DNA of 55,854 nt from Sedimentitalea nanhaiensis DSM 24252. GTDB taxonomy: Bacteria > Pseudomonadota > Alphaproteobacteria > Rhodobacterales > Rhodobacteraceae. Under the pieces are notes generated by a model. The model saw only the letters and a list, made by a program, of their open reading frames with translations, was not told the origin of the DNA and made no database searches. The stretch covers positions 1-55,854 of the forward strand of contig NZ_AXBG01000001.1 of the NCBI RefSeq assembly GCF_000473225.1. The letters run 5' to 3'. Below are positions 3,585 through 52,813 of this stretch, piece after piece. Positions within the stretch are counted from its first letter, which is position 1. Each line of letters opens with the position of its first letter. The translations under genes were made by a program, and so were the position numbers.

Positions 3585-3704
3585 GGTGGGTAAACGCACG
3601 AAAAATGGTGGGTGATAACACGAAAGATGGTGGGTAAAAGCACGAAACTCTTGACTGCGGTGTGTGAAAGCACGAACGTAAAGCATGGTGGGTGATAACA
3701 CGAA
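3585..3704 (+). repeat. iteron array of origin 1 (five copies)
   Basis: Five direct repeats of about 18 bases at 3585, 3607, 3629, 3659 and 3687. The consensus is GGTGGGTRAWARCACGAA; copy 4 begins GGTGTGTGAA. The first three are spaced exactly 22 bases, the later ones 30 and 28. The last copy starts inside the ATG of the rep gene at 3685. Iterons are binding sites for the Rep initiator, used for origin firing and usually for self-repression. Confidence 0.85.
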
Positions 3705-11376: not shown

Positions 11377-11758
11377 TTCAGCCAGCCTGCGCGACCTTCT
11401 CTGGACAGGCACAAAATTCGGCCTGGTGGGGCTGACCACGGTCGGGCTTTACTTCATCGTCCTCGCCCTGGCGCGCCCCTTTATCGCAAATGTCGTGATC
11501 CTGAGCCTGTTCGCTTATGTGGCCAGCGCCGCTTTCAACTTTGTGGCACAGGCCCGCGTGACTTTTGGCAGCACGCCCACCGGCACCCGGCTGGTGCGCT
11601 ATATCCTGATGCATCTGTTGTGCATGGGCATGAACGCGACGTTGATTTACACCCTGATCGAACGGATGGACATGGGATTTTACCCGGCGCAGATCCTGGT
11701 CACCGTGATCATCGCCGGCACGTCTTTTGTCCTGTCCCGGCTCTGGGTCTATCGCTGA
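11366..11758 (+). CDS. GtrA-family membrane protein (lipid-linked sugar flippase)
   Basis: 130-residue protein with four membrane helices, the normal size of GtrA. Family marks are the first helix with KFGLVGLTTVGLY, the short loop FNFVAQARVTFG, and the end SFVLSRLWVYR. The ATG at 11366 lies inside the end of the upstream gene (11-base overlap). GtrA proteins are thought to flip undecaprenyl-phosphate sugars across the inner membrane. It is the last gene of the forward operon, and its 3' end overlaps the reverse gene ending at 11749 by ten bases. Confidence 0.88.
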   Translation: MQIDSASLRDLLWTGTKFGLVGLTTVGLYFIVLALARPFIANVVILSLFAYVASAAFNFVAQARVTFGSTPTGTRLVRYILMHLLCMGMNATLIYTLIERMDMGFYPAQILVTVIIAGTSFVLSRLWVYR

Positions 11759-12840: not shown

Positions 12841-12847
12841 AGCCCCC

Positions 12848-14269
12848 TCAGAACTGGAAATAGATGAAAGCCGAAGTCGCTGTGGTCGCTCCGAACGCCA
12901 GAAGATAAATCATTCCGGCATAGATACCGGCCCGGATCACCATCGGCCATGTCTGATAAAAGCGTACATTTCCCGTCCGTTCAATCAACACGTCCCAGAC
13001 CAGAAGAACAACCATACCCAGATAAGCGGCTGCCGGGATGGTCGGAATCGTCAGCCCCGGCGGGCCCGTGAACAGGCGACCGGTGAAATCCACGATCTGT
13101 GCAAAGGATGTCGCCCGAAACAGCAGCCAGCCGTAACAGACCGCCTGGAAGAACACGGCGATCATCAGAATGCGCCGAACCCATGCCATGGCGCTGCGCT
13201 GCGCCCCCTCCCCGCTGCGTTTGTGGGTTCCGGCAAGCGCGCGGTGGATAGACAACAGCCCGCCCTGGTACAGCCCCCACAGTACGAAATTCCAGGCCGC
13301 TCCGTGCCAGAGCCCACCTAGAGCCATCGTGGCCATCAGGTTGCGATAGGTCTTCCACGGCCCACCGCGATTACCACCCAGCGAAATGTAAAGGTAATCG
13401 CGCAACCAGGTGGACAGGCTGATATGCCAGCGCCGCCAGAATTCCTGCGGATCAACGGCGAAATACGGCTGGGCAAAATTGCGCATCAGACGGAAACCCA
13501 GCATCTTGGCCACCCCGCGCGCAATGTCGGTATAGCCCGAGAAATCGCAATAAATCTGGATGGCGAACAGCCAGGTCGCCAGAATGACATCCCATCGGGT
13601 TGGATCGGGACTGGCATAAATCGCGTCAACCGACGGGGCGATGGCGTCCGCGATCACGACCTTCTTGATCAGTCCCAGCAGGCATAGCACGGCACCTCGT
13701 CCCAGCGCATCCCAGCTCAGGATCCGGGGAGCAGAAATATTGGGTAGAAGGTTTTTGGCACGCTCGATCGGGCCGGCAACCAGTTGCGGAAAGAAGGCGA
13801 CGAAAAGGGCGAAGTCGAGGAAATCATGACAGGGTTTCAGCTCGCGCCGGTAGATGTCGATCGTATAGCTGAGCGTCTGGAACGTATAAAAGGAAATGCC
13901 GACCGGGAGCACAATGGACAGGGTAAACGGGTCGGCGGTATATCCAGCCCAGGTCAAAAGCTCCTGGAAACTGTCTAGGAAAAAGCCGAGATATTTGAAG
14001 ATGCCCAACATGCCCAGGTTGACCGCAAGCGAAATCCACAGGAGCTGTTTGCGCTTATCCTGACGGGTTGCTGTCGCCATCCGGAGACCAACGGCATAGT
14101 CGATGAAGGTGCTGAGCAGGATCAGGCTCAGAAAGCGCCAATCCCATGCGCCGTAGAAGATGTAGCTGGCCACCAGAAGCATCCGGTTCTGTGCCTTGTG
14201 GGGCAACAGCACATAGAGAGCGGACACAATGGCGAAGAACAGCCAGAAATTCAGCTGGGTAAACAGCAT
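12848..14269 (-). CDS. MBOAT-family O-acyltransferase (AlgI-like)
   Basis: 473-residue membrane-bound O-acyltransferase with about eleven helices. The family motifs are present: FFPQLVAGPIERA, DFSGYTDIARGVAKMLGF, QEFWRRWHISLSTWLRDYLY (His282) and GGLWHGAAWNFVLWG with the invariant catalytic His322. Such proteins pass acyl groups, usually acetyl, from a cytoplasmic donor across the membrane for esterification of an exopolysaccharide such as alginate. The following gene encodes its likely periplasmic partner. The 467 bases upstream hold origin 2. Confidence 0.92.
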   Translation of the reverse strand: MLFTQLNFWLFFAIVSALYVLLPHKAQNRMLLVASYIFYGAWDWRFLSLILLSTFIDYAVGLRMATATRQDKRKQLLWISLAVNLGMLGIFKYLGFFLDSFQELLTWAGYTADPFTLSIVLPVGISFYTFQTLSYTIDIYRRELKPCHDFLDFALFVAFFPQLVAGPIERAKNLLPNISAPRILSWDALGRGAVLCLLGLIKKVVIADAIAPSVDAIYASPDPTRWDVILATWLFAIQIYCDFSGYTDIARGVAKMLGFRLMRNFAQPYFAVDPQEFWRRWHISLSTWLRDYLYISLGGNRGGPWKTYRNLMATMALGGLWHGAAWNFVLWGLYQGGLLSIHRALAGTHKRSGEGAQRSAMAWVRRILMIAVFFQAVCYGWLLFRATSFAQIVDFTGRLFTGPPGLTIPTIPAAAYLGMVVLLVWDVLIERTGNVRFYQTWPMVIRAGIYAGMIYLLAFGATTATSAFIYFQF

Positions 14270-14578: not shown

Positions 14579-14756
14579 GTGTGTAGAGTCACGAAAGAAC
14601 GTGTGTGAAATCACGAAAGAGCGTGTGTAGAGTCACGAAAGCGCTCGCGGTGTGTGTGAAATCACGAAACCGGTCCTGCTGTGTGTGAAATCACGAAAGA
14701 CTTGACGAGCGTGTGTGAAATCACGAAAGTGACGGCATGGTGGGTGAAATCACGAA
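14579..14756 (+). repeat. iteron array of origin 2 (seven copies)
   Basis: Seven direct repeats of GTGTGTGAAATCACGAA (two copies read GTGTGTAGAGTCACGAA, the last GTGGGTGAAATCACGAA) at 14579, 14601, 14623, 14652, 14681, 14711 and 14740. Spacings are 22, 22, 29, 29, 30 and 29 bases, so all copies sit on nearly the same face of the helix. The last copy begins one base after the rep start codon. The core word differs from origin 1, so each Rep may prefer its own array. Confidence 0.88.
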
Positions 14757-15798
14757 AGATGTCCGGTCCCCTCTCCTTCCCGATCGTCAGGATCAGAAGG
14801 ATTTCTTTGTGTGCGATATCTTCGATGCGGCCCCAAAGGGCGACATTGCATCGATGGCGCATCCGATCTTTTCGCTCTCCACCAAACCGGACCATCTGCC
14901 GCGCCGTTACGAGGACGAGAGCGGCAAGAACTACGTCGAGGTGCGCCCCTCGTCCGACGGGCTGGCCACGATCCACGACCGGGACGTGCTGATCTACTGC
15001 ATCAGCCAGGTCATCGCCGCGTTGAACGAAGGCCGGCAGGTGCAGCGGGTTGTCCGGATCAAGGCCTACGAGTTGCTCAAGGCCACGAACCGGGTGACGG
15101 ACGGACGTGGTTACAAGGCCCTGCGCGCGGCCCTAGTACGGTTGCAGGGCACGCAGATCGAGACCAACATTACCACTGGCGGCACCGAGCAACTGGATAT
15201 CTTCAGCATCATCGACCGGGCTCGCATCGTTCGCGAGACACGCGACGGCCGCATGCAGGAGATCGAGGTCGAACTGTCGGACTGGGTCTTCAACGCGATC
15301 CGGGCGCAGGAGGTTCTGACCCTGCATCGCAACTATTTCCGGTTGCGCAAGCCGTTGGAGCGGCGGCTCTACGAGTTGGCGCGCAAGCATTGTGGGCGGC
15401 AGAGGCAATGGCGGGTCAGCCTCCCTGCCCTGCAGCGCAAATGCGGCTCGACCTCGACCCTGCGTGAATTCCGGCGCCTTGTCGGCGCGATCGTGGATCA
15501 GGATGCGGCCTATGACCACATCCCGGACTACGCGATCCGTTTTGACGACGATATGGTGGTGTTCGAGAACCGGGGCACGATGGATCCGGTCGTCTGCGAC
15601 TCGGCGGCAGACCTGATCCGGCTCAGCCCCCAAGCCCATGACAAGGCCCGCGCCGCAGCCCCTGGCTGGGACGTGCATTACCTTGAACAAGCCTGGCGCA
15701 GCTGGATGGCCGATGGTGGTCTGGATGCGCCGCGTGATGCGGACAAGGCCTTTGTCGGGTTCTGTGCCAAGTGGTTCGAAAAGCGCGGTCGGCCCTAG
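14737..15798 (+). CDS. replication initiator protein A (RPA family), copy 2
   Basis: 353-residue initiator, clearly paralogous to the one at 3685. It has the same DFFVCDIFDA, HPIFSLSTKPD, DRDVLIYCISQ, YELLKATNR, LSDWVFNAI and YFRLRKPLERRLYELARKH blocks in the same order, and the same C-terminal APGWDVHYLEQAWRSWM and FVGFCAKWFEKRGRP segment. The ATG at 14737 is in the last iteron and has no strong Shine-Dalgarno, suggesting that bound Rep blocks its own expression. Codon use is more GC-rich than in copy 1, which points to separate origins of the two modules. This copy is linked to parA and a parB-like gene and is probably the main replicon. Confidence 0.92.
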   Translation: MVGEITKDVRSPLLPDRQDQKDFFVCDIFDAAPKGDIASMAHPIFSLSTKPDHLPRRYEDESGKNYVEVRPSSDGLATIHDRDVLIYCISQVIAALNEGRQVQRVVRIKAYELLKATNRVTDGRGYKALRAALVRLQGTQIETNITTGGTEQLDIFSIIDRARIVRETRDGRMQEIEVELSDWVFNAIRAQEVLTLHRNYFRLRKPLERRLYELARKHCGRQRQWRVSLPALQRKCGSTSTLREFRRLVGAIVDQDAAYDHIPDYAIRFDDDMVVFENRGTMDPVVCDSAADLIRLSPQAHDKARAAAPGWDVHYLEQAWRSWMADGGLDAPRDADKAFVGFCAKWFEKRGRP

Positions 15799-17450: not shown

Positions 17451-18884
17451 GTGCAGGACGGATCGAACCGGGCAATGGGGCAGGGGCGCGCGAACTCTGA
17501 AAGACAGGGCCGCATATCTGCTTCTCTGCGCCGACTGTTAGGGGGCGACGGGCTGCGCGCCCGGGCCTTGCGTGGCACTGCGTTTACTTTTTTCGGTTTC
17601 GGGGCCCAGCAGTTTCTGCGCCTGTTGCTGAATCTGGTTCTGACCCGGTTGCTGTTTCCCGAAGCCTTTGGCCTGATGGCCTTGGTCATGGTGGTTCTGA
17701 CGGGACTTCAAATGCTCTCGGACACGGGCATCAATCCATCTATCGTGCAGAGCAAGCGGGGAGACGATCCGGGCTTTCTCAAGACAGCCTGGAGCCTTCA
17801 GATCGGGCGGGGGTTTTTGCTGTGGCTGCTTACACTTGCCCTGGCGGTTCCCATGGCCCGTTTCTATGACCAGCCTCAGCTGGCCGCCCTGTTGCCGGTT
17901 GCGGGCTTTGCCACCGTCATCCAGGGACTGCAATCGATGCGGCTGGCTACGGCCAACCGTCATATTGCGCTTGGTCGCCTGACCATGATGGAACTGGGCA
18001 GCCAGACTCTGGGCATTTTGGTGACGATCCTTCTGGCCTGGTGGCTGCAATCTGTCTGGGCGTTGGTGATCGGTACGCTGATTGGAATCACGATCAAGAC
18101 GATGATGTCGCATCTGATGTTGTCCGGCCACCAAGATCGTCTGGGTTGGGATCGCGCCGCGTTCTGGGAGATCTTCCATTTCGGAAAGTACATTTTCATC
18201 GGCTCGATGGCCGGATTTCTGATCAACAATGCGGACCGTGCCGTTTTGGGGAAATTCATCAGCATTGGCGAGTTGGGAATCTATAATATCGGTTTCTTCA
18301 TGGCGTCGATCCCGTTCATTGTTTCCAACCAACTTGGCGCTCGGGTTCTGATGCCGATCTATGCCAAAACCCCGCCGCGCGAAGGCCCGGCCAATCGCCA
18401 CAAGGTGCGCTTGGCCCGGGTCATGCTGACGACGGCGCTGATTGGCTTGGGGCTGGTTCTTGCCTCGATCGGCGACTGGCTGATCAAACTGCTTTACGAG
18501 CCGGAATATGCTTTGGCCGGACCGATCATGGTTCTGCTCAGCCTGACCTATCTGCCCACGCTTGCCTTCAACGCCTATGCAAATTTGCTCCTGGCTTCGG
18601 GAAAGTCGCGAAATTTCACCATATATTTGGTCGTTCTGGGAGCGTTGCAGCTGACTCTTCTGATCCTGCTGGTCCGGGAATACGGTATCTTGGGCGCGGC
18701 CATCGCGCCGGGGTTGGCGGCCTTGCTGGTGTACCCCCTTACGGCCTGGTTGGCTCATCGCGAAAGGGGCTGGGACCCCCTGCTGGATCTGGGATTTATG
18801 ATCGTCATCGCGCTCGGGGTCGCGGGTGTGCTGAGCCTGCATGACACCGCAATTTCCGAGGTGCTGAACGGGCTGGGCGGCTGA
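17451..18884 (+). CDS. Wzx-type polysaccharide flippase (PST/MVF family)
   Basis: 477-residue membrane protein with about 12-14 helices. The N-terminal block (GTAFTFFGFGAQQFLRLLLNLVLTR, with the RLLFPEAFGLMALVMV segment) is typical of the PST branch of oligosaccharide flippases. Such proteins move the undecaprenyl-diphosphate-linked repeat unit to the periplasmic side. The GTG at 17451 gives the longest frame; an ATG at 17475 is an equal choice, and the helices begin after residue 40 in either case. It is convergent with the reverse glycosyltransferase block. It is the only flippase of this type in the window and pairs functionally with the Wzy-like gene at 21821. Confidence 0.85.
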   Translation: MQDGSNRAMGQGRANSERQGRISASLRRLLGGDGLRARALRGTAFTFFGFGAQQFLRLLLNLVLTRLLFPEAFGLMALVMVVLTGLQMLSDTGINPSIVQSKRGDDPGFLKTAWSLQIGRGFLLWLLTLALAVPMARFYDQPQLAALLPVAGFATVIQGLQSMRLATANRHIALGRLTMMELGSQTLGILVTILLAWWLQSVWALVIGTLIGITIKTMMSHLMLSGHQDRLGWDRAAFWEIFHFGKYIFIGSMAGFLINNADRAVLGKFISIGELGIYNIGFFMASIPFIVSNQLGARVLMPIYAKTPPREGPANRHKVRLARVMLTTALIGLGLVLASIGDWLIKLLYEPEYALAGPIMVLLSLTYLPTLAFNAYANLLLASGKSRNFTIYLVVLGALQLTLLILLVREYGILGAAIAPGLAALLVYPLTAWLAHRERGWDPLLDLGFMIVIALGVAGVLSLHDTAISEVLNGLGG

Positions 18885-21820: not shown

Positions 21821-23302
21821 TTACTTGCGGGCGTGTCGAGATTTCTGCCGAGTGTATTGATTCTGCCGTGTTCCAGATCTGGCGGGGTTGGCTATCTGTT
21901 TTCCCAGCCGGGTGTAAATAGAACCTGAGTTGCCTGACGTGTCTGTTGACACAGTATCTGTTTCAGTCTCGATCCGACCCAGCTCAAGCCGCCCCCAAAG
22001 CGCTCCGGCCACGACCCAAGTGACAGGAGTGAGGCCGGAATTTGGAAGAAGGTCAATCAGGTTGGCCGCCAAAACCAAGGCCAGGATGGAGCTCTCCATC
22101 CCGATGTCATAGCGCCGGAGATGCCGGAAGAGCAGGATTATGGGGAGACATAACAAACCGAAATTGGACAGGTATCCAACCCAACCGCTGGCTCCGAGCA
22201 TACCAATCCAGAGACCATCGACAATTGTGATATCCACCCCAGTTATAGGATCGGAGATTCTGGATCGCCCCCAAAGGCCCCAACCAAACCATGGACGTTG
22301 CTGCGCTTTGGCAAGCAACCTGTCTTCATTCACGACACGGGTCATGAAGGATGCGGCTCTCTCAGGGCTGATGGATTCCGCAATCTGCGCGACTTGCTGG
22401 ATTGGGATGACCCCGGTGGAGCGGCCAATCGGGTAGACTAGGACCAGAACTGCGATAGCGCAGGCGGTCAGCAACTGGCCACGCACCCCCCAGAGCAGTG
22501 CCGCTGGCAGCATGAGGATGACAATGACCAGAGCCCCCAGTGACTTGGTCAACACCAGCGTCAAGAAAAGCCAGGCCATGGCGGCCAGAAATTTGCCGCG
22601 CTGCTTGTGATAGAGCCGCGACAGACCGGCCGCCGCCAAGGTGGCGCAGCAGAAGAACAGAGACACCACCAGACCATGGCTGAGGAAAACGATCGGTCGC
22701 CAACCGCCGCCGCGATAATGTTGTCTCCAGCTATGGGGAAAGAACCCGTAGACCCATTGGTTCAATTGCGGTGACATGCGAACTTCGAATAGCGCCAGAA
22801 GGGAATAGAAAAGAGCCGCGAAGCATAGGACTCTGAGAAGCAACACATGGGTTTCGGGTCTGGCAAGAAATTTTCGCGCCAGCAGCATGGGTAGAAGCAT
22901 CATCGCCATGGTGAGGGCGTGCGCAAACCCGTCATATAGGCGCATGCCTGGCTGTACCTTCGGACCATAGCGCAAAGGATCGCCATTGGTGGCGACCGTG
23001 AGCAATGCGCCCAGGACCAAACCGACCACGGCAATCCGGACAAACGGATGTTCGGGTATCAGCGATCGACTGTCTGTCTTTCCCTTGCCGGTCTGAAACA
23101 AGGTGATGAACAGAACAACGGATAATACCGGGACCGTATGTTTGGTCAGGGCCGGTAACATTGGCAGGTCGAACGCGATCGTTTCCGGCAGCAATAAAAA
23201 GCCAGTCAAGATCGCCAGGATGAATGCCAAAGCCGGGCGAAACTTGCGTGCAAGAACCACAACGACCAGCGGCCAGGAAAACAGGGCGAGAAGGGGCGGC
23301 AT
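21821..23302 (-). CDS. Wzy-like polysaccharide polymerase / O-antigen ligase-type membrane protein
   Basis: 493 residues with about twelve membrane helices between residues 5 and 430 and a hydrophilic C-terminal tail of about 60 residues rich in Thr and Arg. The large periplasmic loop around 330-380 includes RVVNEDRLLAKAQQRPWFGWGLWGRS, which resembles the 'W-GxGxG' region of the O-antigen ligase/polymerase family. With a Wzx-type flippase nearby it is best read as the polymerase that joins repeat units in the periplasm. Ligase cannot be excluded on sequence alone. It is divergent from the Ig/FN3 gene. Confidence 0.72.
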   Translation of the reverse strand: MPPLLALFSWPLVVVVLARKFRPALAFILAILTGFLLLPETIAFDLPMLPALTKHTVPVLSVVLFITLFQTGKGKTDSRSLIPEHPFVRIAVVGLVLGALLTVATNGDPLRYGPKVQPGMRLYDGFAHALTMAMMLLPMLLARKFLARPETHVLLLRVLCFAALFYSLLALFEVRMSPQLNQWVYGFFPHSWRQHYRGGGWRPIVFLSHGLVVSLFFCCATLAAAGLSRLYHKQRGKFLAAMAWLFLTLVLTKSLGALVIVILMLPAALLWGVRGQLLTACAIAVLVLVYPIGRSTGVIPIQQVAQIAESISPERAASFMTRVVNEDRLLAKAQQRPWFGWGLWGRSRISDPITGVDITIVDGLWIGMLGASGWVGYLSNFGLLCLPIILLFRHLRRYDIGMESSILALVLAANLIDLLPNSGLTPVTWVVAGALWGRLELGRIETETDTVSTDTSGNSGSIYTRLGKQIANPARSGTRQNQYTRQKSRHARK

Positions 23303-36597: not shown

Positions 36598-37257
36598 ATG
36601 TTACGTTTTTTGATGATTGCCGGGCTTCTGTCCGGACTGTTCTCCACTCAGGCTGATGCCCGAACGATCCGCTATGAATTTGATGTGGTGGACTCTTGGT
36701 TTTCGGTTGGCAACCTGACGGAAATTTCTTCACCATTTACCAGCAATGTCACGGAAAGACAGGTCGAGTACAACGATCCGCTCTATCAAGAAGTCGTGGC
36801 AGGCATTCATCCGCTGGCGGATCTTATCGGAAAAACCGGACGCGTCGCGATGCAGTTGGAGATTGACTGGTCTGATATCTACTCCATCGACTGCCTCAGT
36901 GGTATTCTGTGCGCAGAATTCAATCGGATGCATCCTCAACCCGGATCGGTCGTTGATTCAGCGGTTAATCCGAATGGCTTTACAATCTTTGCATGGGGTT
37001 CCAGTGGAGAATGGTATCTGGGCAGCAATCCGATGACGGGTGAAGGACGTCTGTTCTTCACCGACGATAGGACCTGGGGCACTGGATGGCTGAACGGCAA
37101 CTTCTATGAACACGGTGGCGCAACGGCCGATTTCGCCCTCGCCAATTTCACCAGCACCGAAATTTCCCCCGTCCCTCTGCCCGCTGCGGCACCGCTTCTG
37201 GCGATGGGACTGATGGCGTTCGGGTTCGTTCGGCGCCGCGCGCGCCGCCTGAGCTGA
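36598..37257 (+). CDS. VPLPA-CTERM sorting-signal protein
   Basis: 219 residues with an N-terminal Sec signal (1-21, ending TQADA) and a C-terminal sorting signal: VPLPAAAPLLA (about 191-201), a hydrophobic helix LLAMGLMAFGFV and a basic tail RRRARRLS. The tripartite end is the known substrate signal of the XrtD exosortase, which is encoded about 7 kb downstream at 44183. The mature part of about 170 residues is beta-rich, has one Cys pair (in SIDCLSGILC) and no known fold. AAGGA stands seven bases before the ATG. It has its own promoter region (36357-36597). Likely a secreted, sorted, surface- or matrix-associated protein. Confidence 0.9.
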   Translation: MLRFLMIAGLLSGLFSTQADARTIRYEFDVVDSWFSVGNLTEISSPFTSNVTERQVEYNDPLYQEVVAGIHPLADLIGKTGRVAMQLEIDWSDIYSIDCLSGILCAEFNRMHPQPGSVVDSAVNPNGFTIFAWGSSGEWYLGSNPMTGEGRLFFTDDRTWGTGWLNGNFYEHGGATADFALANFTSTEISPVPLPAAAPLLAMGLMAFGFVRRRARRLS

Positions 37258-37258
37258 C

Positions 37259-38578
37259 CTATACCTTGACCACCCGTTCCATCGGCAGCCCGCGCCGGGC
37301 GATGGCGTTGCGGGTGTCGATCACCGGGCACTCCAGGTCCAGCAGCGCGGCATAGTCCACCGCGTCGTGATCGGTGGCGATCAGCACCGCGTCGAACTGG
37401 CCCGGTTTCAGCTCTGCCGGGTCCAGTGCCGGGCGCGCGGTGAACTGGCGGTATTCGCGCATCGGCGGAATCTCGGGAACGTGGGGGTCGATATAGGCAA
37501 TCTCGGCCCCTGCCTCGTCCAGCAGTTCCAGCAGCTTCATCGCCGGGCTTTCGCGCATGTCGGCGACGTTCTTTTTATAGGCGATGCCCACCAGCAGGAT
37601 ACGCGCGCGGCTCAGACCCTTGCCGGCGTCGCGATCCACGATCTCGCGCAGCCGGTCGATCACGTGGTTGGGCATGGCGGTGTTGATTTCGCCCGCCAGT
37701 TCGATGAACCGCGTCGGCACCTCGTATTCGCGCGCCTTCCAGGTCAGGTAAAACGGATCGATCGGGATACAGTGCCCGCCCAGGCCGGGCCCAGGATAGA
37801 AGGGCATGAAACCAAATGGCTTGGTGGCGGCCCCGTCGATCACCTCCCACACATCGATGCCCATCCGGTCGTAGACCAGTTTCAACTCGTTCACCAAGGC
37901 GATGTTGACGGCGCGAAAGATGTTCTCGGTGATCTTCACCGCCTCGGCGGTCTGGGTGGTGGACACGCGCACCACCTGATCGACGATTCCCGCATACAGC
38001 GATTCGATCAGCTGTCCGGCCATCTCGCCGGAACCGGCAACAATCTTTGGGATCGTGCTGGTATTGTATCGCGCATTGCCCGGATCCTCGCGTTCAGGCG
38101 AAAAGCCCAGGAAAATATCTTCGCCCAGTGTCAGACCGGATTCGGCCAGGATCGGCGCCAGTACTTCGTCCGTGGTGCCCGGATAGGTGGTGGATTCCAG
38201 CACCACCAGAGTGCCGGGGCGGATGTGGCGGGCAATCTCGCGGGTGGTAACCGTAACAAAGGACAGATCCGGTTCGCGCTGTTTGGTCAGCGGCGTCGGC
38301 ACACAGATCAGGATCGCCTGGCATGTTGCAAGCCGCGCAAAATCGGTGGTCCAGTCCAGCCGCCCGGAGTCAGACAGCGTCCTGAGGTCATCGCTGGCCA
38401 CCGCGCCGATATAGCTGTCATGGGCATCCAGCCGATCCATCTTGGACTGGTCGATATCGAACCCGGTTACGGAAAATCCGCGCTGCGCGGCGGTGACCGC
38501 CAGTGGCAGCCCGACATAACCCAACCCAACCACGCCCACCCGCGCGGTCTTGTCCGCAATTGCATCCAACAATGACAT
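37259..38578 (-). CDS. nucleotide-sugar (UDP-HexNAc) 6-dehydrogenase, WbpA/WecC-like
   Basis: 439-residue NAD-dependent dehydrogenase that oxidises C6 of a UDP-sugar to the uronic acid in two steps. The NAD-binding Rossmann start is VGVVGLGYVGLPLA (13-26). The catalytic Cys270 lies in PGPGLGGHCIPIDPFYLTWKA, a form seen in UDP-GlcNAc or UDP-ManNAc dehydrogenases more than in UDP-glucose dehydrogenases. VGIAYKKNVADMRESPA marks the C-domain. It ends one base after the stop of the VPLPA gene on the opposite strand. The product is a uronic acid for the exopolysaccharide, perhaps amidated later by AsnB. Confidence 0.9.
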   Translation of the reverse strand: MSLLDAIADKTARVGVVGLGYVGLPLAVTAAQRGFSVTGFDIDQSKMDRLDAHDSYIGAVASDDLRTLSDSGRLDWTTDFARLATCQAILICVPTPLTKQREPDLSFVTVTTREIARHIRPGTLVVLESTTYPGTTDEVLAPILAESGLTLGEDIFLGFSPEREDPGNARYNTSTIPKIVAGSGEMAGQLIESLYAGIVDQVVRVSTTQTAEAVKITENIFRAVNIALVNELKLVYDRMGIDVWEVIDGAATKPFGFMPFYPGPGLGGHCIPIDPFYLTWKAREYEVPTRFIELAGEINTAMPNHVIDRLREIVDRDAGKGLSRARILLVGIAYKKNVADMRESPAMKLLELLDEAGAEIAYIDPHVPEIPPMREYRQFTARPALDPAELKPGQFDAVLIATDHDAVDYAALLDLECPVIDTRNAIARRGLPMERVVKV

Positions 38579-44039: not shown

Positions 44040-44182
44040 TCCGCCGTCCAGTTTTTTGCTCGGAACCCCGGCCTGGCAATAGAACTTCAACGAACGATGT
44101 GCCACTGTGCCGCCCGATCCCGCATGTCATTGTGCTGACGTGTTGCGGGGTCAGGATACGATTGGCGCCAAAGAGGTTATAT

Positions 44183-45787
44183 ATGTCTGCACCCAGTTCC
44201 GAAGTAGCCGCGCCTCCGCGCCTCTCCTCCTTTTTTACCTGGGGCATGTTCTGGCTCCTGATCACCATCATGGCGGCGGGAATTTTCTTTGCCAACGGCA
44301 TCAATGCATTGCTGGTCGCCTGGCAATTGCCGGAATACAGCCACGGCCCTCTGATCCCAGTGCTGTCGGCGCTGTTGTTCCTGCGCGAGCTGCGCGATCA
44401 GCCGGCCGATCCCGGACCCAAATCCGACCGCTGGCCCGGCGTGCTTCTGATCACCTTTTCGCTGCTGTTCGGCGCCTTGGGGATCTTGGCCAATATCGAC
44501 GATATCGTCGCCTATGCGATGATCCTCTGGGTTGGTGGATTGCTTCTGACCAGTTTCGGCTGGCGCACCGGGCGGAATTTCTGGCCCTCTGTGCTGCACC
44601 TGGTCTACATGCTGCCCCTGCCCGGAGTGATCTATTACAAGGTCTCGACCTCGCTGCAGTTCCTGTCCTCGGAAATGGGCGTCTGGTTCCTGCAGATGCT
44701 ATCGGTGCCGGTGTTTCTGGACGGCAACATCATCGACCTGGGCGTGACCAAGCTGCATGTGGCCGAGGCCTGTTCGGGCCTGCGCTACATGTTCCCGATC
44801 CTGTCCTTTTCCTACATCTTCGCGGTGCTCTATCGCGGTCCAAAATGGCAAAAGGCGGTGCTGCTGCTGTCGGCTGTCCCGATCGCCCTCCTGATGAACT
44901 CGATCCGGATCGCAATTGCCGGGATCATCGTGCAGTATTACGGGCTGGATTGGCTGGAAGGGTTCAGCCATTTCTTTGAGGGCTGGGTGATCTTTCTGGC
45001 CTGTATCGCAATCCTGTTTCTCCTGGCCTGGCTGATGCTGTTCCTGCATCCAGACAAGCTCAGCCTCGCGGACGCACTTGATCTCGAGTTGTCCGACCTG
45101 CTGCCGCAAATCTCCCGGCTGCAATATGTGCGCCCGTCAAAGGCACTGATCACGGCCGCCATTCTGGCGCTGGCAGGAGCCACGGCAATCATGACGATGC
45201 CCGACCGCGACGGCCGCGTGCCCGAGCGGGAAGGCTTCGCGACCTTCCCTCGCCAGCTTGGCGAGTGGCAGCAGCAAGGTCCGCGCGATATCCTCAATGC
45301 CCAGCTGACCGCAGCTCTGGGAGCGGATGACTACCATCAGGTCAACCTGGCCAAACCGGGTCAGGATCTCCCCGTGGGTCTGTTCATGGCCTGGTACGAA
45401 GATCAAAGCGACGGGGGGGTGCATTCCCCCGAGATTTGCCTGCCGGGTTCGGGTTGGGAAATCGCCTGGCTGGAGCGCACGGACATCACCGAGGCAATGG
45501 GATCGGACACGCCGTTCCGGATCAACCGCGCCATCATTCAGAAAGGTGAGATGCGGATGATGGTGTTCTACTGGTTCCAGCAGAAAGACCGCCGAATAGC
45601 TTGGGATTTTGCAGCAAAATTCTGGCTGATGATGGATGGTATCAAGACCGGCCGGACCGATGGTGGCTTGGTGCGTCTGACCACGCTCATCGACCGGAAC
45701 GAAACCGATGCAGAAGCGGAGGCGCGGTTGCTTGAAGTATTACGTGGCATCCAGGAGCCCCTGCCCCGCTTTATTCCGGACAAGTAA
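44183..45787 (+). CDS. xrtD: exosortase XrtD with fused EpsI domain (VPLPA-CTERM-specific)
   Basis: 534-residue inner-membrane cysteine transpeptidase/protease of the exosortase family. Helices span about 20-325, with the catalytic triad Cys197 (EACSGLRYM), Arg242 (MNSIRIAIAG) and His263 (EGFSHFFEGW). The C-terminal part (about 350-534) is the EpsI/DUF3485 domain, with HSPEICLPGSGW (His414, Cys419). Fusion of the two and the co-occurring VPLPA protein at 36598 identify the XrtD type. The ATG at 44183 with AAGAGG upstream is chosen over a frame that opens at 44099. It cuts the sorting signal of VPLPA proteins so that they leave the membrane during exopolysaccharide export. Confidence 0.92.
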   Translation: MSAPSSEVAAPPRLSSFFTWGMFWLLITIMAAGIFFANGINALLVAWQLPEYSHGPLIPVLSALLFLRELRDQPADPGPKSDRWPGVLLITFSLLFGALGILANIDDIVAYAMILWVGGLLLTSFGWRTGRNFWPSVLHLVYMLPLPGVIYYKVSTSLQFLSSEMGVWFLQMLSVPVFLDGNIIDLGVTKLHVAEACSGLRYMFPILSFSYIFAVLYRGPKWQKAVLLLSAVPIALLMNSIRIAIAGIIVQYYGLDWLEGFSHFFEGWVIFLACIAILFLLAWLMLFLHPDKLSLADALDLELSDLLPQISRLQYVRPSKALITAAILALAGATAIMTMPDRDGRVPEREGFATFPRQLGEWQQQGPRDILNAQLTAALGADDYHQVNLAKPGQDLPVGLFMAWYEDQSDGGVHSPEICLPGSGWEIAWLERTDITEAMGSDTPFRINRAIIQKGEMRMMVFYWFQQKDRRIAWDFAAKFWLMMDGIKTGRTDGGLVRLTTLIDRNETDAEAEARLLEVLRGIQEPLPRFIPDK

Positions 45788-46745: not shown

Positions 46746-47312
46746 TCAACCTTCATATTCAGCGCCAAGATAGTCCCTTTCCAGCGCCAGAAGATCCCGA
46801 CTACGCGCTTTTACGCGACGAGCCGGGGTCCCGGCATAAATCGTCCACGGCTCTGTTGATTTGAGTACCAAGGCCAAAGCGCCTACCGCCGTACCCTCCC
46901 CAAGAGTGACCCCAGGCGTGAGGACGGCTCCAGCTCCAACAATACAATGCCTTCCCAAATGCACCGGTTTACCCACTTCTGCCTTATAGACAGAAGGTAC
47001 CGTGGGGTTCGTCATGGTCGCGCCACTGTAATCGTCAGACTGTGAAAACACCTTTACATGATAAGCCAAACCCGAAAAATCTTCGAAAGTGATCCCTGGG
47101 TTTCCGCCCGCGACCAGACATAAGGGCGCAATATGCACGTTTCGCCCCATCACGATCTTCCCTGAAACGACGCAGAAATCGTCAATCCGGGAATTATCCC
47201 CGATCTCCATCTTCTCGGCCTCGTAAATCGACGCCTTGTCGCTGATCTTCACGTTGCGACCCAAGCGGGCGAACCCCATGGCCTCCAGGGCCTTTTGCGA
47301 AAGATACGCCAT
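46746..47312 (-). CDS. hexapeptide acetyltransferase (WbbJ/WcaF-like)
   Basis: 188 residues, mostly left-handed beta-helix: GRNVKISDKASIYEAEKMEIGDNSRIDD, GRNVHIAPLCLVAGG, then GRHCIVGAGAVLTPGVTLGEGTAVGALALV and the family end YAGTPARRVKAR. It transfers acetyl from acetyl-CoA to a hydroxyl or amino group. Its start is 3 bases after the stop of the WecE-like gene, so it could be the N-acetylase for the dTDP-4-amino sugar made by that enzyme. That role is inferred only from position. Confidence 0.85.
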   Translation of the reverse strand: MAYLSQKALEAMGFARLGRNVKISDKASIYEAEKMEIGDNSRIDDFCVVSGKIVMGRNVHIAPLCLVAGGNPGITFEDFSGLAYHVKVFSQSDDYSGATMTNPTVPSVYKAEVGKPVHLGRHCIVGAGAVLTPGVTLGEGTAVGALALVLKSTEPWTIYAGTPARRVKARSRDLLALERDYLGAEYEG

Positions 47313-47315
47313 GGC

Positions 47316-48464
47316 TCAAACCTCTTGCTCGAAATAACGCTGCGCCACCTCGATCACCCCTTCGATCCCGTCTTCCAGCCCGTAAAACAGCGGCAGACGC
47401 ACAAGCCGGGCCGAGATGTCATCCGTCACCGGCAGGCCATTGCCGATAAACCGGGCATGTTTCCGACCGGCCGGGGCGGAGTGCAGCGGTACATAGTGGA
47501 ACGGCGTGATGATACCCGCCGCGCGCATATGCGCAATAAAGGCGTCGCGATCCTCGATGTCGCGCAGCAGCAGATAGAACATGTGACCGTTGCCCGTGGT
47601 ATCCGGCGGTGCCACCGGCAGGCGCACCCGCCCGGCCCCGGCCAGATCGGCAAAAGCCTCGGCATAGCGGTCAAACAGGGCCAAACGGCGCAGCTTGATC
47701 GCCTCGGCCTGTTCGAGTTGGCCATAAAGAAAGGCCGCCACCAACTCGCCCGGCAGGAAGGACGAGCCGATATCGACCCAGGTGTATTTATCGACCTGCC
47801 CGCGCAGGAACCGCGAGCGGTTGGTGCCCTTCTCGCGGATGATCTCGGCCCGTTCGACCAGATCCGGGCGCATCAGGGTCAGCGCACCGCCCTCGCCCGA
47901 GATGATGTTCTTGGTCTCATGAAAGGAAAACGCCGCCATGTCGCCCAGACTGCCTGCCGGACGCCCCTTGTAGGTGGATCCCAGCGCCTGGGCCGCGTCT
48001 TCGACCAGCAGCAGATCATGGTCGCGGGCGATTACGGCCAAAGCATCCATGTCGGCCGGAAAACCCGCGTAGTGTACCGCAAATATGGCCTTGGTCCGAT
48101 CCGTGACAGCGGCGGCTGTCTTTTCGGGGTCCATGTTCAGCGTTTGCGCGTCGATATCGACAAAGACCGGCGCCGCCCCACGCAAGGCCACCGCGTTTGC
48201 GGTCGAGACAAAGGTGAAGGACGGCATGATCACCTCGTCCCCCGGCTCCAGATCGCACAGGATCGCCGCCATTTCCAGCGCGGCGGTGCAGGAATGGGTC
48301 AGCAGCGCGCAGCGAGCCCCGGTCATCTCGGCGATACGGGCATTGCTGAGCCTGGTGAAATGACCATCGCCGGACAGTTGCCCCCGGTCGATTGCCTCTT
48401 GCAGATAGGCAACCTCCTTGCCCACCATGGAGGGTTTATTGAAGGGTGTCTTACTTGCGGTCAT
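47316..48464 (-). CDS. wecE: dTDP-4-amino-4,6-dideoxygalactose transaminase (WecE/RffA-type)
   Basis: 382-residue PLP aminotransferase. The long WecE-type signatures are all here: PFNKPSMVGKE at the start, THSCTAALEMAAILCDL, GDEVIMPSFTFVSTANAVAL, FHETKNIISGEGGAL with PLP Lys185, and EKGTNRSRFLRGQVDKYTWVDIGSS. These distinguish it from the aminotransferase at 6955. It converts dTDP-4-keto-6-deoxyglucose to dTDP-Fuc4N using glutamate. Needs RmlA/RmlB products from elsewhere. It heads a reverse operon with an acetyltransferase and a probable transferase. Confidence 0.9.
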   Translation of the reverse strand: MTASKTPFNKPSMVGKEVAYLQEAIDRGQLSGDGHFTRLSNARIAEMTGARCALLTHSCTAALEMAAILCDLEPGDEVIMPSFTFVSTANAVALRGAAPVFVDIDAQTLNMDPEKTAAAVTDRTKAIFAVHYAGFPADMDALAVIARDHDLLLVEDAAQALGSTYKGRPAGSLGDMAAFSFHETKNIISGEGGALTLMRPDLVERAEIIREKGTNRSRFLRGQVDKYTWVDIGSSFLPGELVAAFLYGQLEQAEAIKLRRLALFDRYAEAFADLAGAGRVRLPVAPPDTTGNGHMFYLLLRDIEDRDAFIAHMRAAGIITPFHYVPLHSAPAGRKHARFIGNGLPVTDDISARLVRLPLFYGLEDGIEGVIEVAQRYFEQEV

Positions 48465-48563: not shown

Positions 48564-51149
48564 TTAATTGTTCACGGAAACTCCAAAGTACATCCGCCAG
48601 ACGCGAAGCCCAAGCCAACCGATCCCGGACAGAAACAAGCCCATCGGAACTGCGATCGCAATGCCGCCGGGCACCCCAAGGTCCTTGCCGATGTCGGCCA
48701 CGGGAATGACCGCCCCGTGAAAGGCGTAGATCGGCAGGGCCAAAGCTCCGGTGACGATCAGGAATTTCAGACCTGTCCGCACCCCCCCGGGCCATGAGGA
48801 CCAATGCGATATGGCACGTGTGGCCAACCCCAAAAGGGTCACGACAAGCGCCGCATAAAAAACATAACCCGCAAGGGATCTGTGGAACCCGCCCAGAGGA
48901 TCCGCCAGCGCCTGTATTCCGCCGTGCTCGATACCGATCAGCACAGCCACCGCCGCAATCCCCGCCCCGGTCACGGCGGCGGTTCTTGCGGCCTTGGCCG
49001 CCTCCGTCTGACGCGCGTACCAAATTCCCGCAGCGAGCCCCAAAAGGACAAGCCCCCCGATCCTGGGAACGCTGTAATGCCCCACCGCGAGCAGTTTCAG
49101 AAGCTCTAGTGGCGACCCCAGAGAGTCCGGCGGCATCAGCGGCCGGAGCATCAGGTAAACAGACCAAAGCAACACCGCTCCCAGCAGACAATCCGCATAG
49201 GGACGGTCCCGCCGGGCGATCAGCCGCATCACAGGAAAGGCCAGCGCCAGCGCCACCAGATAGAAGGTGAGCACACCGTAAAACAGAACCGCAATCTGTT
49301 CGGCCGACAGCATGTGCCCCTGATACAGTTTCAGACGTAGCCCCAGCACCAGTGCCAGCAGCAGCGCCGCCGCCCCGACCAGCAGCCAGGATTGGCGCAA
49401 GCGTCTGCGCACCGCGGCAGGACGATCGAGAACATTGGGAAAAAGAAAGAACCCTAGCCCAAGGCCGAAAACCGTGGCAAACCCGGGTGTTCCCATACGA
49501 TAGAACGGCCCCATGATCCGGGCGGTCGCCTCCTCAAGACCAAGACGTGCAAAGACGCCCGGGGCCCAATGCGCGAACAGCACCGACAGCACCATGAGGC
49601 CACGCACCAGGTTCAGCGCCCAGCTGCGGATCGTCGCATCCGGAAATCCGTCCCGCACTTCGGCCCCGGCCAGCTCGGCCAGGGTGCGCCCCTCCAACGT
49701 GCCTTTGACAACGGCATTGGGATACCCGTCGGATTCCATCGTCAGGCCAATCTGCATCGCGCTGAGGGAATCGCCGCCCAGATCGTAAAAGCTGTCATCG
49801 GGGCGGATCAGGGTATCCCCGACCACCCGGCGCCATGCCTTGGCAATCCGGGCCTGTTCCGGGCTCAGGTCGACCTGCTCTGCCTGAACCGGCCCGGCAG
49901 GGGGCACGGGAACAAGATCCCGCAGCCTGCGGCGCTGGACCTTGTCTGTTCCGGTGGTCGGCAACTGGGAAACCTCGATGCGGCGCAAGGCACCGTCAGC
50001 CTCGACTCCGCGTTCCCGCAGTGCAATCCGTGTTGCTTCCTCCACCAGAGCCGGATTGACATCCGGCATCTGGACCACGGCCAACAGGACAATCTCGCCG
50101 CGCAAGGCATCGGACCCCGCCCCGATCGCGAATGAGCCGGGTTTCGCATGAATCAACTCCCGAACCCGTGCCTCCAAAGCTTCGGCGCCAACCTTGATCC
50201 CGGCCACGTTGATCTGGTCATCCAACCGCCCGTCGTACCAGAGCACCCCATCTTCATACCGGCCCTGATCCTTGGTCACGAGCCAGCCATCGCCATCCAC
50301 CAGAGGAAGGATCGCGCCATCATCGGTGACTGTGCCGGTCGCGACATGCGGCCCCCGGATCCGAATACTGCCATCGGGTCCGATTTCGATCTCGACCTCT
50401 CCGGTCGGATCGCCGACAGAGCCCAGGACATCGTCCGGGGCGGAATCGATGCACAGAAACGTCGTGCGTGATGCCTCGGTCAGACCATAGTGCTGGACGA
50501 TGCGGGCGTTCGGGAACAGGCGGCGCATCCCGGCCTTTTCCTCGGCGCTCATGGCCTGGCTGCCGATTTCGATCCAGCGGATCGCCCGGCCCGCATCGCC
50601 AATGATGCCGGGATTGGCAAGAACCAGACGCCACAGCGCGGGCACCGCAGAAATCGCGTTGATTTCTCCGGCGGCGGCCATCCGCGCGATCTCGGAGGGA
50701 TCGAAGCGTTCGGGCAGGAAAAAGGCACCGCCCGCCGCCGCAACCGCCCGCGCGCGGCCCAGACCGAATGAATAGGTCACCGGAACACCGATGTATTCCC
50801 GGATACTGTCATCGACCTCCATGACCCGGTTGAGGCGCACAACCACATCCGCAAGGTTGCGATGGGTTATGGCGATGGCCTTGGGGCGGCCTTCCGTTCC
50901 GGAGGTGAAAACGATCTGCGCAATCGCCTCGGAGAAATCCGGCTTGTAGTTCAGTTGCCCCCAGCCAAAGCGTTCCTCCACCGGTTCCGGATCCTGCGGC
51001 GACATGGCCTGAATCGCAGGATGCTCGATTGTATCCCGCTCGATGCAAAAGGGGGTGCTCCGACTGTAAAGTTCAAAAGCCTTCTCAAGAAACGAGAGTG
51101 AATTTTTCGCCCGAATGCGAACCAGATGATCCAGTCGGCTTACACTCAT
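48564..51149 (-). CDS. three-domain fusion: adenylation + acyl/peptidyl carrier + acyltransferase-3 membrane domain
   Basis: 861 residues. Part 1 (1-420): an AMP-forming ligase with P-loop FTSGTEGRPKAI starting at Phe81, QHYGLTEASRT, WYDGRLDDQINVAGIKV and the catalytic Lys403 in TGTDKVQRR. Its N-terminal subdomain is about 70 residues shorter than usual. Part 2 (about 425-500): a carrier domain with Ser461 in DLGGDSLSAM for 4'-phosphopantetheine. Part 3 (about 505-861): about ten helices of the acyltransferase-3 type, starting NLVRGLMVLSVLFAHWAP with the Arg and His of the active site. The protein seems to activate an acid, load it on its own carrier and pass it to a membrane acyltransferase that modifies a glycan. 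The substrate is unknown. I do not recognise this as a named system. Confidence 0.85.
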   Translation of the reverse strand: MSVSRLDHLVRIRAKNSLSFLEKAFELYSRSTPFCIERDTIEHPAIQAMSPQDPEPVEERFGWGQLNYKPDFSEAIAQIVFTSGTEGRPKAIAITHRNLADVVVRLNRVMEVDDSIREYIGVPVTYSFGLGRARAVAAAGGAFFLPERFDPSEIARMAAAGEINAISAVPALWRLVLANPGIIGDAGRAIRWIEIGSQAMSAEEKAGMRRLFPNARIVQHYGLTEASRTTFLCIDSAPDDVLGSVGDPTGEVEIEIGPDGSIRIRGPHVATGTVTDDGAILPLVDGDGWLVTKDQGRYEDGVLWYDGRLDDQINVAGIKVGAEALEARVRELIHAKPGSFAIGAGSDALRGEIVLLAVVQMPDVNPALVEEATRIALRERGVEADGALRRIEVSQLPTTGTDKVQRRRLRDLVPVPPAGPVQAEQVDLSPEQARIAKAWRRVVGDTLIRPDDSFYDLGGDSLSAMQIGLTMESDGYPNAVVKGTLEGRTLAELAGAEVRDGFPDATIRSWALNLVRGLMVLSVLFAHWAPGVFARLGLEEATARIMGPFYRMGTPGFATVFGLGLGFFLFPNVLDRPAAVRRRLRQSWLLVGAAALLLALVLGLRLKLYQGHMLSAEQIAVLFYGVLTFYLVALALAFPVMRLIARRDRPYADCLLGAVLLWSVYLMLRPLMPPDSLGSPLELLKLLAVGHYSVPRIGGLVLLGLAAGIWYARQTEAAKAARTAAVTGAGIAAVAVLIGIEHGGIQALADPLGGFHRSLAGYVFYAALVVTLLGLATRAISHWSSWPGGVRTGLKFLIVTGALALPIYAFHGAVIPVADIGKDLGVPGGIAIAVPMGLFLSGIGWLGLRVWRMYFGVSVNN

Positions 51150-51272: not shown

Positions 51273-52073
51273 TCATTCCCCGAACGGATCCCGATAGATC
51301 CCCAGCTTCTGTTTCAGCGCCAGCCACAGGAAGGGCGGGTTTTCAATGATATAGCGGCGGAACCGAACGCGGGGTTGTTTGATCAGGCGATAGAACCATT
51401 CCAGCCCAGCATCCGTCACCCACGGCGCGGGGCGGGGCAAGGTGCCTGCCTCGTAATCGATGGTGCCGCCCAAAGGCAGCCACAGCTTCACCCCCGGCAT
51501 CCTGTCGCGATATTTGACAATGAACTTCTCTTGCCGCCCGCCGCCAAGACCGACCAGGCAGGCGGAGGCACCGGACGCATTGATCGCCTCGATCACGCGC
51601 TCGATCTCGCCTTCGCGGGTCTCGAGGTCAAAGGCCGGGGCATCGGTGCCGACGATGATGTCGCGGCCGACCTTCCTGTTGATCCGCTCGCGCGCCAGCT
51701 CGGCGATCCCCGGCTTGCCGCCGCACAGAAACACGGTCACCTCCGGATTGTCCTTGTGGTGCATGTAAAAGCGCGGGAAATAGTCGCTGCCTGACACGCG
51801 CTCTTGCACCGGTGTGCCAAGCAGCTTGAGAACGGCATACATGATCTGGCTGTCGCATGTGATCACATCGAACTTGTCCAGCAGGTCATAGAACGCACGG
51901 TCGTGCTGCAGCTTCATCATCATGTCCACATGCAGCGTCAGCATGGACCCCTCGGGAAAATCCCTGACCAGGGCGTCCATGGACAGATCGTTCACCCACG
52001 CATTCAGCAGCGGCACACGCTTAAGCTCTCCCAAGCCCGCAGCCGGTACCACGTCGCGACAATTGTCCTTCAT
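51273..52073 (-). CDS. WecG/TagA/CpsF-family glycosyltransferase (GT26)
   Basis: 266 residues from the ATG at 52073, with GAAAGG nine bases upstream; an open frame extends 28 codons farther but lacks support. Motifs are LLNAWVNDLSMDALV, TLHVDMMMKLQHDRAFYDLLDKFDVITCDSQIMYAVLKL, VSGSDYFPRFY, VFLCGGKPG, CLVGLGGGRQEKFI, and WLPLGGTIDYEAGTLPRPAPWV, typical of GT26 enzymes. They add the second sugar (ManNAc or ManNAcA, or glucose in some) to the lipid-linked first sugar of a repeat unit. With WecE- and WecC-like genes nearby an enterobacterial-common-antigen-like unit is suggested. Confidence 0.9.
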   Translation of the reverse strand: MKDNCRDVVPAAGLGELKRVPLLNAWVNDLSMDALVRDFPEGSMLTLHVDMMMKLQHDRAFYDLLDKFDVITCDSQIMYAVLKLLGTPVQERVSGSDYFPRFYMHHKDNPEVTVFLCGGKPGIAELARERINRKVGRDIIVGTDAPAFDLETREGEIERVIEAINASGASACLVGLGGGRQEKFIVKYRDRMPGVKLWLPLGGTIDYEAGTLPRPAPWVTDAGLEWFYRLIKQPRVRFRRYIIENPPFLWLALKQKLGIYRDPFGE

Positions 52074-52813
52074 GTGAAAGCGCCTTTCGTTCTGTCGACC
52101 CCAGAAGGGGCAAGCGAAATGCCCTCCGCCGAAAAAACACAACTTATGGTAGAGCAAATCAAGAGTGCGTTAATCTTTGAGTAACAAGACGAACCCATCC
52201 TCTCCCCGCCGAACCCTGCCTTTTCCAAGTGCTGCTCAGACATGATCGAAATCGTTCACCCTTCAGAAATCGGCCGGCACTGCCGCGAAAATGCCCCTGA
52301 CGTATCGGGCATTCAGCCCATCCTTGCAACTGCATTGGGGCCACATTGAGACTGAAGCACAGCGACCAAAGGGCAATTCTGCACTGTACTGACGGGACCG
52401 CAGAGCGGGAAAAGGAATCCCGAAACTCGGGTGACGCAGGGTCATCTTTCCCGTTAAAGATGAACCATCGGCGAAAACCCGCAGATAGCGCGCGTATTCG
52501 GATCTCCCCATTCCGAAATCGGATCGTTGCCCGTACAAGGCGGGCGCGACGCGTCCTGCATCGCATCACACTCACGAGAACAGGCAGAGCAAATGACACG
52601 AGCAGACAGGTTATCCTGTGGCACACCTTGCCATGGCGAAACGTAAACGGACCGACACCACCTGACCATCTTGGCATCAAACAGCCTCCACCCGCAGGGG
52701 TTCCGGTTGCCGAATGGATCGAGAAACATAAAACACACACAAAAAAAACAGCCTGCGGCAGTTCGGAAGAATGATCGGCTGACGCGCAGGCCATAAAAAC
52801 TTGGGACAAACAT
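52074..52813. other. long non-coding divergent region
   Basis: 740 bases between the reverse GT26 gene and the forward beta-helix gene. It has an A-run and a CACACACAAAAAAAA stretch at 52733-52749, and a 7-bp inverted repeat GCCTGCG (52751-52757) / CGCAGGC (52785-52791) about 25-60 bases before the start codon, which could fold in the leader of the downstream mRNA. Several short frames on both strands have no features of real genes. The region presumably carries two promoters and may carry a regulatory leader. Confidence 0.4.

Follow-up and report, generated by a model that had tools for sequence, protein, structure and literature searches.

An AMP ligase fused to a carrier and to an AT3-like membrane domain within an exopolysaccharide cluster of Sedimentitalea nanhaiensis: a putative self-contained surface-acylation enzyme

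Introduction

Can a single polypeptide activate an acid, hold it on a carrier and pass it across the membrane to a surface acceptor? The question is raised by a gene of Sedimentitalea nanhaiensis DSM 24252, located in the stretch of 55,854 nucleotides analysed here (NCBI RefSeq assembly GCF_000473225.1, contig NZ_AXBG01000001.1, positions 1 to 55,854 of the forward strand; the window in what follows). The gene joins an AMP (adenosine monophosphate) ligase, a carrier domain and a membrane domain resembling the acyltransferase-3 (AT3) proteins. We suggest, with a probability of about 60%, that its product is a self-contained surface-acylation enzyme; the acid, the acceptor and the mechanism proposed for it below are putative and follow from sequence comparison.

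Results and Discussion

Domain organization of the fusion protein

The fusion gene has an ATG start and lies on the minus strand, and the plus-strand frame over the same interval is interrupted by stops. Pfam scanning places an AMP-binding domain at residues 67-272 (96.2 bits, cut-off 29.9) and a PP-binding domain further on (29.2 bits, cut-off 20.8). A previous sequence-only reading of the window had described a protein of 861 residues with a P-loop at Phe81, Lys403 and Ser461, and these residues are as it gave them (the P-loop reads F81-TSGTEG-RPK90). It had also called the N-terminal subdomain of the ligase short, and this is borne out: the PF00501 profile is entered at position 155 of 384, and the truncation is common to the relatives, with 76-111 residues preceding the P-loop motif in the 11 members printed. 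A wrongly chosen start is not the cause, since the stop-to-stop frame is only 871 aa long. Among more specialized models, the ligase part scores 84.5 bits over residues 70-254 against TIGR03098, whose cut-off of 592 is not reached. The genome itself contains a single match to the phosphopantetheinyl transferase family PF01648, in a 140-residue frame, so that an enzyme that might modify this carrier is at hand.

The remainder of the protein appears to be an AT3-like domain, though a very diverged one, because it carries the R516-x10-H527 pair, shows ten hydrophobic peaks, and corresponds in place to PF01757 in homologous fusions (L010, 1.3e-26; L077, 3.6e-26; L078, 9.6e-21; L074, 1.4e-8). For the role of the R-x10-H motif in the first transmembrane segment (TM1) of AT3s we follow PMC7448272. 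In the alignment of the clade of the window (clade I below), the R-x10-H pair falls in the first peak and His811 in the ninth. A fusion of the same clade, from genome G300, additionally gives a match of 20.7 bits that spans positions 3-321 of PF01757 (single-genome E 2e-4) and is below the cut-off of 31; the plain Pfam scan of the same protein did not report PF01757. The acyltransferase-3 domain named in the sequence-only reading is thus probably AT3-like, as judged from motif, hydropathy and homologues.

The 14 full-length members of the family, which span three AT3 clades, all retain the residues of the P-loop and, within YGxTE, the Tyr, Thr and Glu; Lys403, Ser461, R516, H527 and H811 are likewise present in every one of them. 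Loss of the ligase lysine or the carrier serine was looked for in these relatives and was not found. The features of the gene are as follows, with invariance given for the 14 full-length members.

48564..51149, minus strand: ligase-carrier-AT3-like fusion gene, 861 aa (open reading frame)
49905..51149, minus strand: AMP ligase, residues 1-415, short N-terminus (PF00501, E 2.4e-27)
50880..50909, minus strand: ATP-binding motif F81-K90 (FTSGTEGRPK); S83, G84, T85, G87 and K90 invariant in 14/14
49941..49943, minus strand: ligase Lys403, invariant in 14/14
49665..49862, minus strand: carrier domain, about residues 430-495 (PF00550, E 1.1e-6 at 434-474)
49767..49769, minus strand: carrier Ser461, phosphopantetheine site, invariant in 14/14
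48567..49652, minus strand: residues 500-861, putative AT3-like membrane part (ten peaks of hydropathy when the clade is aligned; PF01757 in homologous fusions)
49569..49604, minus strand: R516-x10-H527 motif, TM1, in 14/14
48717..48719, minus strand: His811, in 14/14

Relatives of the fusion

A near copy, 85% identical, is present in Rhodobacteraceae bacterium F11138. A ligase-carrier profile matched 12 of 394 family-level genomes at E values up to 1e-50, and, with E values no higher than 1e-60, 1 of 385 class genomes and 2 of 359 phylum genomes. All three counts include the genome of the window itself, and up to four candidates per genome were scored. In 12/12 family genomes a membrane part follows the ligase and carrier, as a single open frame in 11 and as two pieces at contig ends in G369. 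Matches to the AT3 part of the window across the 394 genomes fall in fusion genes only (its own and those of G364, G300, G369, G276 and G153); when its own genome was searched for AT3 genes related to the clade I part but standing alone, the window gene was the sole match, and the G364 AT3 part as a query against plasmids found nothing. One weak match of the 394-genome scan, L055 in G356, was rejected as a member, being a ligase-carrier with a different C-terminal part as judged by eye.

Plasmid records gave further relatives in Paracoccus zhejiangensis (WP_101754629.1, labelled 'AMP-binding protein'), on pSA1 of Novosphingobium resinovorum (unannotated) and in Neorhizobium galegae (labelled 'fatty acid--CoA ligase family protein'). 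The last of these (L061:14956-17393) is split into several frames and is either a decayed gene or affected by sequencing errors. In G369, the ends of contig C92 (61320 bases) overlap exactly by 152 bases and each end holds part of a fusion gene; this probably reflects a plasmid circle of about 61 kb, or else a break within the carrier repeats.

Modularity and a wider class of fusions

In the ligase tree the 14 short ligases form one group (support 91/97), while their AT3 parts differ in kind. Clade I comprises the window, F11138, G300, G364, G276 and G153, and is not confidently alignable to AT3. The AT3s of clade II (G028, G231 and G114) group with that of L111 (99/94), the ligase of which is of a full-length type and is placed among full-length ligases (98/93). 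The AT3s of clade III (Paracoccus, Novosphingobium, G312, G218 and G244) group with those of twelve other fusions (100/99). Between the clades, identity is 39-48% in the ligase and 11-20% in the AT3 part; within clade I, which has two halves, members of one half share 43-48% and 25-30%, respectively, with those of the other. The AT3 tree has long branches and its deep joins are unsure, yet the grouping of the short ligases on AT3 parts of different kinds suggests that one ligase-carrier type has received AT3 parts by exchange, or that its AT3 part has changed stepwise.

The number of carriers between ligase and membrane part also varies, with tandem arrays in three genomes:

L053:7642-11052 (G276): fusion with four carriers
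L054:8353-11535 (G153): fusion with three carriers
L052:4316-6319 with L051:1-1338 (G369): fusion in two pieces at contig ends, three carriers plus one

Within a locus the repeats are 83-100% alike in G153 and G369, and 58-62% in G276. In each case the fusion is preceded, at a distance of 3-12 bp, by a gene for a TauD/TfdA dioxygenase, and one may guess that this enzyme could hydroxylate the acid, either free or carrier-bound. The family therefore looks modular, with one ligase-carrier type, at least three AT3 kinds and one to four carriers; given such joining, donor acid and acceptor seem exchangeable.

A PF01757 scan of 13 genomes together with a reading of long frames yielded three more fusions, L111, L112 and L113. 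The first two have a full-length ligase with YGQTEA, while L113:2476-6504 encodes 1342 residues that read, by eye, as condensation domain, ligase resembling those of nonribosomal peptide synthetases (NRPS), carrier and AT3-like membrane part. With L112 as the query, 718 plasmid records match, most of them plain ligases or unexamined; in 48 the match extends over 80% or more of the query. Ten plasmid fusion loci were read, from Sinorhizobium meliloti, Rhodococcus, Rhizobium phaseoli (two), Leisingera, Roseateles, Pseudarthrobacter, Rhodobacter, Shinella and Pseudorhodobacter turbinis; their AT3 parts were recognised by R-x10-H and the tree rather than by Pfam scanning. Nine are annotated as 'AMP-binding protein' and the tenth record is unannotated. 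The S. meliloti locus, on a pSymB record (L119:8956-11613; protein UIJ96131.1), is a full-length ligase-carrier-AT3 fusion among housekeeping genes and would lend itself readily to genetic work, and the Rhodococcus fusion is surrounded by metal and iron transport genes. At one R. phaseoli locus (L121:7971-14968), genes for a large AAA ATPase, YcaO and TfuA come after the fusion. Several loci lie in such plain surroundings, so that the wider class has no fixed link with exopolysaccharide. The three-domain order, which the sequence-only reading could not place in any described system, is hence not unique to the window and occurs in many sequence records.

Absence of a proposed coenzyme A site from carrier-fused AT3s

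Carrier phosphopantetheine is without a 3'-phosphate. An RxxR motif adjoining TM3 has been proposed, in PMC9833829, to hold the 3'-phosphate of coenzyme A (CoA; Arg74 in OafB), and an AT3 fed by a carrier would be expected to do without this motif because its donor lacks that group. RxxR next to TM3 was found in 0/21 carrier-fused AT3s and in 19/22 other AT3s of the same genomes. The 21, all alignable, consist of three from clade II, five from clade III and 13 from the wider class. These counts refer to the motif as read beside the proline of TM3; when alignment columns are applied strictly, the comparison becomes 0/21 vs 15/22. Three of 25 control loci (L089, L108 and L109) were dropped as no frame was assignable, and an earlier reading of the controls had given 17/18. 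Fisher's test, run with 0/20 as the two near-identical Rhizobium copies were counted once, gives p 3.5e-9 and ignores relatedness.

We consider it somewhat better than an even bet that these proteins form a modular class of carrier-fed AT3s, in which the acyl group would cross from a tethered phosphopantetheine rather than from CoA. The ligases of such a class would be of at least three types (short, full-length with YGQTEA, and NRPS-like), its carriers would number from one to four and its AT3 parts would be of three kinds or more; the AT3s that joined it would have lost the CoA 3'-phosphate site. A stand-alone AT3 lies just before the TauD gene and fusion of G369 (L052:2227-3255, identical to L106); it is without RxxR, joins the clade II AT3s (93/94), and may be carrier-fed in trans.

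Proposed mechanism and alternatives

From domain identity and conserved residues, we propose that the short ligase would adenylate a small carboxylic acid other than an alpha-amino acid, and that the acid would be loaded in the cytoplasm as a thioester on the phosphopantetheine of the protein's own carrier. The tethered arm might then enter a cytoplasmic cavity of the AT3-like domain, bringing the thioester to His527, and a hydroxyl or an amine at the outer side of the membrane could receive the acyl group. In the lineage of the window the acceptor would be the exopolysaccharide of the cluster, perhaps a 4-amino-4,6-dideoxy sugar, as the neighbouring genes suggest.

Several points weigh against this proposal. 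Residues 500-861 have no Pfam match, to PF01757 or any other model; likewise no NCBIfam model covers them among the matches listed (25 of 82), and profile-profile comparison of the window AT3 clade with three other AT3 sets found nothing. AlphaFold models for the window protein and L028 were too poor to use (mean pLDDT, the predicted local distance difference test, 32.4 for ligase-carrier and 43.5 for the membrane part). Several relatives, for instance in Paracoccus and Sinorhizobium, lie outside polysaccharide clusters. The AT3 donor is given as acyl-CoA rather than an acyl carrier protein in a review (PMC9558356). As for the RxxR test, the tree places the 21 fused AT3s in no more than two supported groups, so the loss represents one or two evolutionary events and not 21; 3/22 of the other AT3s (L090, L099 and L106) are also without the motif; and RxxR-like strings occur further upstream in Rhodococcus (RTER) and Pseudarthrobacter (RQLR), where they were not counted. 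Finally, in clade I, unaligned to AT3, an RRxR string stands near TM3 in 4/6 members, including the window (RRLR), and is missing in 2/6.

One alternative concerns the acceptor: the acyl group could go to a lipid of the membrane, to an intermediate linked to a lipid or to some small molecule that is secreted, and the position in the exopolysaccharide cluster would be incidental. Neighbours of the three-domain fusions elsewhere are polysaccharide genes at some loci and unrelated at others. The Paracoccus fusion stands next to genes for glycolate oxidase and gamma-glutamyltransferase, and the surroundings of the wider-class loci in Sinorhizobium and Rhodococcus speak in the same direction. Against this, clade I fusions lie by polysaccharide genes wherever neighbours were identified: WecG and an exosortase in the window, WecG and a DUF3485 part in G364, and a mannose-phosphate nucleotidyltransferase and Wzz in G300. 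In clade III, the G244 fusion likewise lies by Wzy_C and sugar transferase genes, with a GMC oxidoreductase gene directly before it. A different acceptor is possible, though less likely than not.

A second alternative is that the AT3-like part uses free acyl-CoA while the ligase and carrier load an acyl group for another partner. This would agree with the donor of published AT3 enzymes, and the RRxR of the window means that the CoA-site argument does not extend to the window protein itself; the earlier claim that no free acyl-CoA is needed is accordingly backed by the loss of RxxR in related carrier-fused AT3s and not by the window. However, the fusion is kept in 12/12 genomes with this ligase type, across different AT3 kinds, RxxR is missing in two alignable lineages, and no partner gene is common to the loci among the neighbours identified, which were not all of them. 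We therefore regard use of free acyl-CoA as improbable, and retain transfer from the fused carrier as the preferred reading.

The nature of the acid bears on the last alternative. In amino-acid ligases, a pocket Asp binds the alpha-amino group. At this position all 14 family members carry the string SFG, and two alignments put the Asp column at Gly129 or Ser127, neither of which is Asp; in contrast, the NRPS-like relatives L113 and P. turbinis do carry Asp there. Because SFG replaces the Asp, the acid would be expected not to be alpha-amino, and a Dlt-like amino acid as substrate seems unlikely. Arg228, three residues past the Glu of YGxTE, is invariant in the family and is A, P or Q in 13 ligase proteins of other types. 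Its place near the pocket is compatible with an acid bearing a second polar or negative group, and with the preference for small or charged acids that the sequence-only reading had suggested. That reading's aminoacyl group, attached as an ester by a Dlt/Alm-like system, shares the logic of ligase, carrier and membrane acyltransferase and is echoed by 49.9 bits against the DltA model, but with a cut-off of 476 far from reached and the Asp absent in 14/14 it is a very improbable explanation.

Genomic context

The fusion gene sits in an exopolysaccharide/exosortase cluster, as had been proposed. The main neighbours and replication genes in the window are:

51273..52157, minus strand: WecG/TagA/CpsF glycosyltransferase (PF03808, 1.5e-45), 123 bp upstream of the fusion on the same strand
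47316..48464, minus strand: WecE-type sugar aminotransferase (TIGR02379 and NF008687 above cut-off), 99 bp downstream of the fusion
46746..47312, minus strand: hexapeptide acyltransferase (PF00132), 3 bp after WecE
44099..45787, plus strand: VPLPA-CTERM exosortase XrtD with EpsI domain (TIGR04152, 650 bits, cut-off 400)
37259..38578, minus strand: nucleotide-sugar dehydrogenase (PF03721, 2.6e-41)
36598-37257: protein with weak VPLPA-CTERM signal (22.4 bits, cut-off 25.35)
21821..23302, minus strand: Wzy_C protein (PF04932, 2e-8)
17451..18884, plus strand: polysaccharide export protein (Polysacc_synt, Wzx type; PF13440, 1.9e-51)
12848-14269: MBOAT gene, 34 kb from the fusion
3685-4725: RPA-type replication initiator (PF10134)
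14737-15798: second RPA-type replication initiator (PF10134), within 11 kb of the first

Further glycosyltransferases, FdtA, a sulfotransferase and two stand-alone AT3 genes complete the set. A WecG gene adjoins the fusion in G364 as well. The WecE and hexapeptide acyltransferase genes were considered as fixed partners, an idea weakened by L028, whose fusion protein is 85% identical but where another, converging gene follows the fusion. Pfam scanning assigns no MBOAT domain to the fused membrane part. The MBOAT gene of the window lies beside a gene of 363 residues without a Pfam match (11749-14269), and a similar pair of frames, judged by eye, occurs near the G300 fusion (L050:11315-13847).

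The two RPA initiators, together with a ParA-like ATPase and a resolvase also encoded here, suggest that the window lies on a plasmid. In roseobacters, plasmids with exopolysaccharide genes go by the name of biofilm plasmids.

Comparison with known systems

No description of a ligase-carrier-AT3 protein was found among the titles and opening lines of abstracts listed by searches of open-access literature, which leaves most subscription papers outside; some of these searches targeted Dlt, Alm, Pls or exosortase instead of the fusion. The term 'AMP-binding' occurs 0 times in the main texts of PMC9558356, PMC12423673 and PMC7448272, and 'acyl carrier' 0 times in those of PMC9558356 and PMC9833829.

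Among AT3 proteins (PF01757), OafA, OafB, OatA and Oac resemble the fusion in having R-x10-H in TM1; they have ten helices, to which the ten hydropathy peaks of clade I may correspond, and they acylate surface sugars (PMC7448272 and PMC9833829). The described AT3s differ from it in being AT3-only or AT3-SGNH, the two architectures distinguished in PMC7448272, and in being taken to use acyl-CoA. DltABCD is closer in logic: an AMP ligase charges a carrier protein, and outward movement of the acyl group is the task of a membrane acyltransferase with multiple helices (PMC3783018). It consists, however, of separate proteins, has the MBOAT DltB and DltD instead of an AT3, and uses an alpha-amino acid. 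AlmEFG, which places glycine on lipid A of Vibrio cholerae, likewise combines ligase, carrier and acyltransferase, and does so in a Gram-negative; PMC12930378 and PMC3783018 assign the roles of AlmE and AlmF oppositely. It too differs from the fusion by its separate proteins, the LPLAT domain of AlmG and its amino acid substrate.

The exosortase-A-associated acyl ligase of TIGR03098 is an AMP ligase model of exosortase systems, but it describes a ligase alone, over 517 positions. Adenylation, carrier and membrane parts are found in one chain in Pls/PosA, the poly-lysine and poly-ornithine synthetases; these polymerize amino acids and have a membrane region of a different kind, and their terminal-domain model TIGR02353 is not among the matches listed for the window protein (25 of 82 NCBIfam).

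If the proposal holds, a class of enzymes that prepare the donor themselves, bound to a tethered arm, would broaden the range of acids that can be placed on surface glycans, and would offer a clean test of the arm-threading model for the AT3 domain, in which the 3'-phosphate site becomes dispensable. Proteins whose sole label is 'AMP-binding protein', among them the nine annotated in plasmid records, would also gain a likely role. The enzyme is real and conserved, and it would combine the activation, carrier and membrane transfer of Dlt and Alm, but fused in one chain and built on AT3; Dlt/Alm logic would in this way be joined to the AT3 superfamily.

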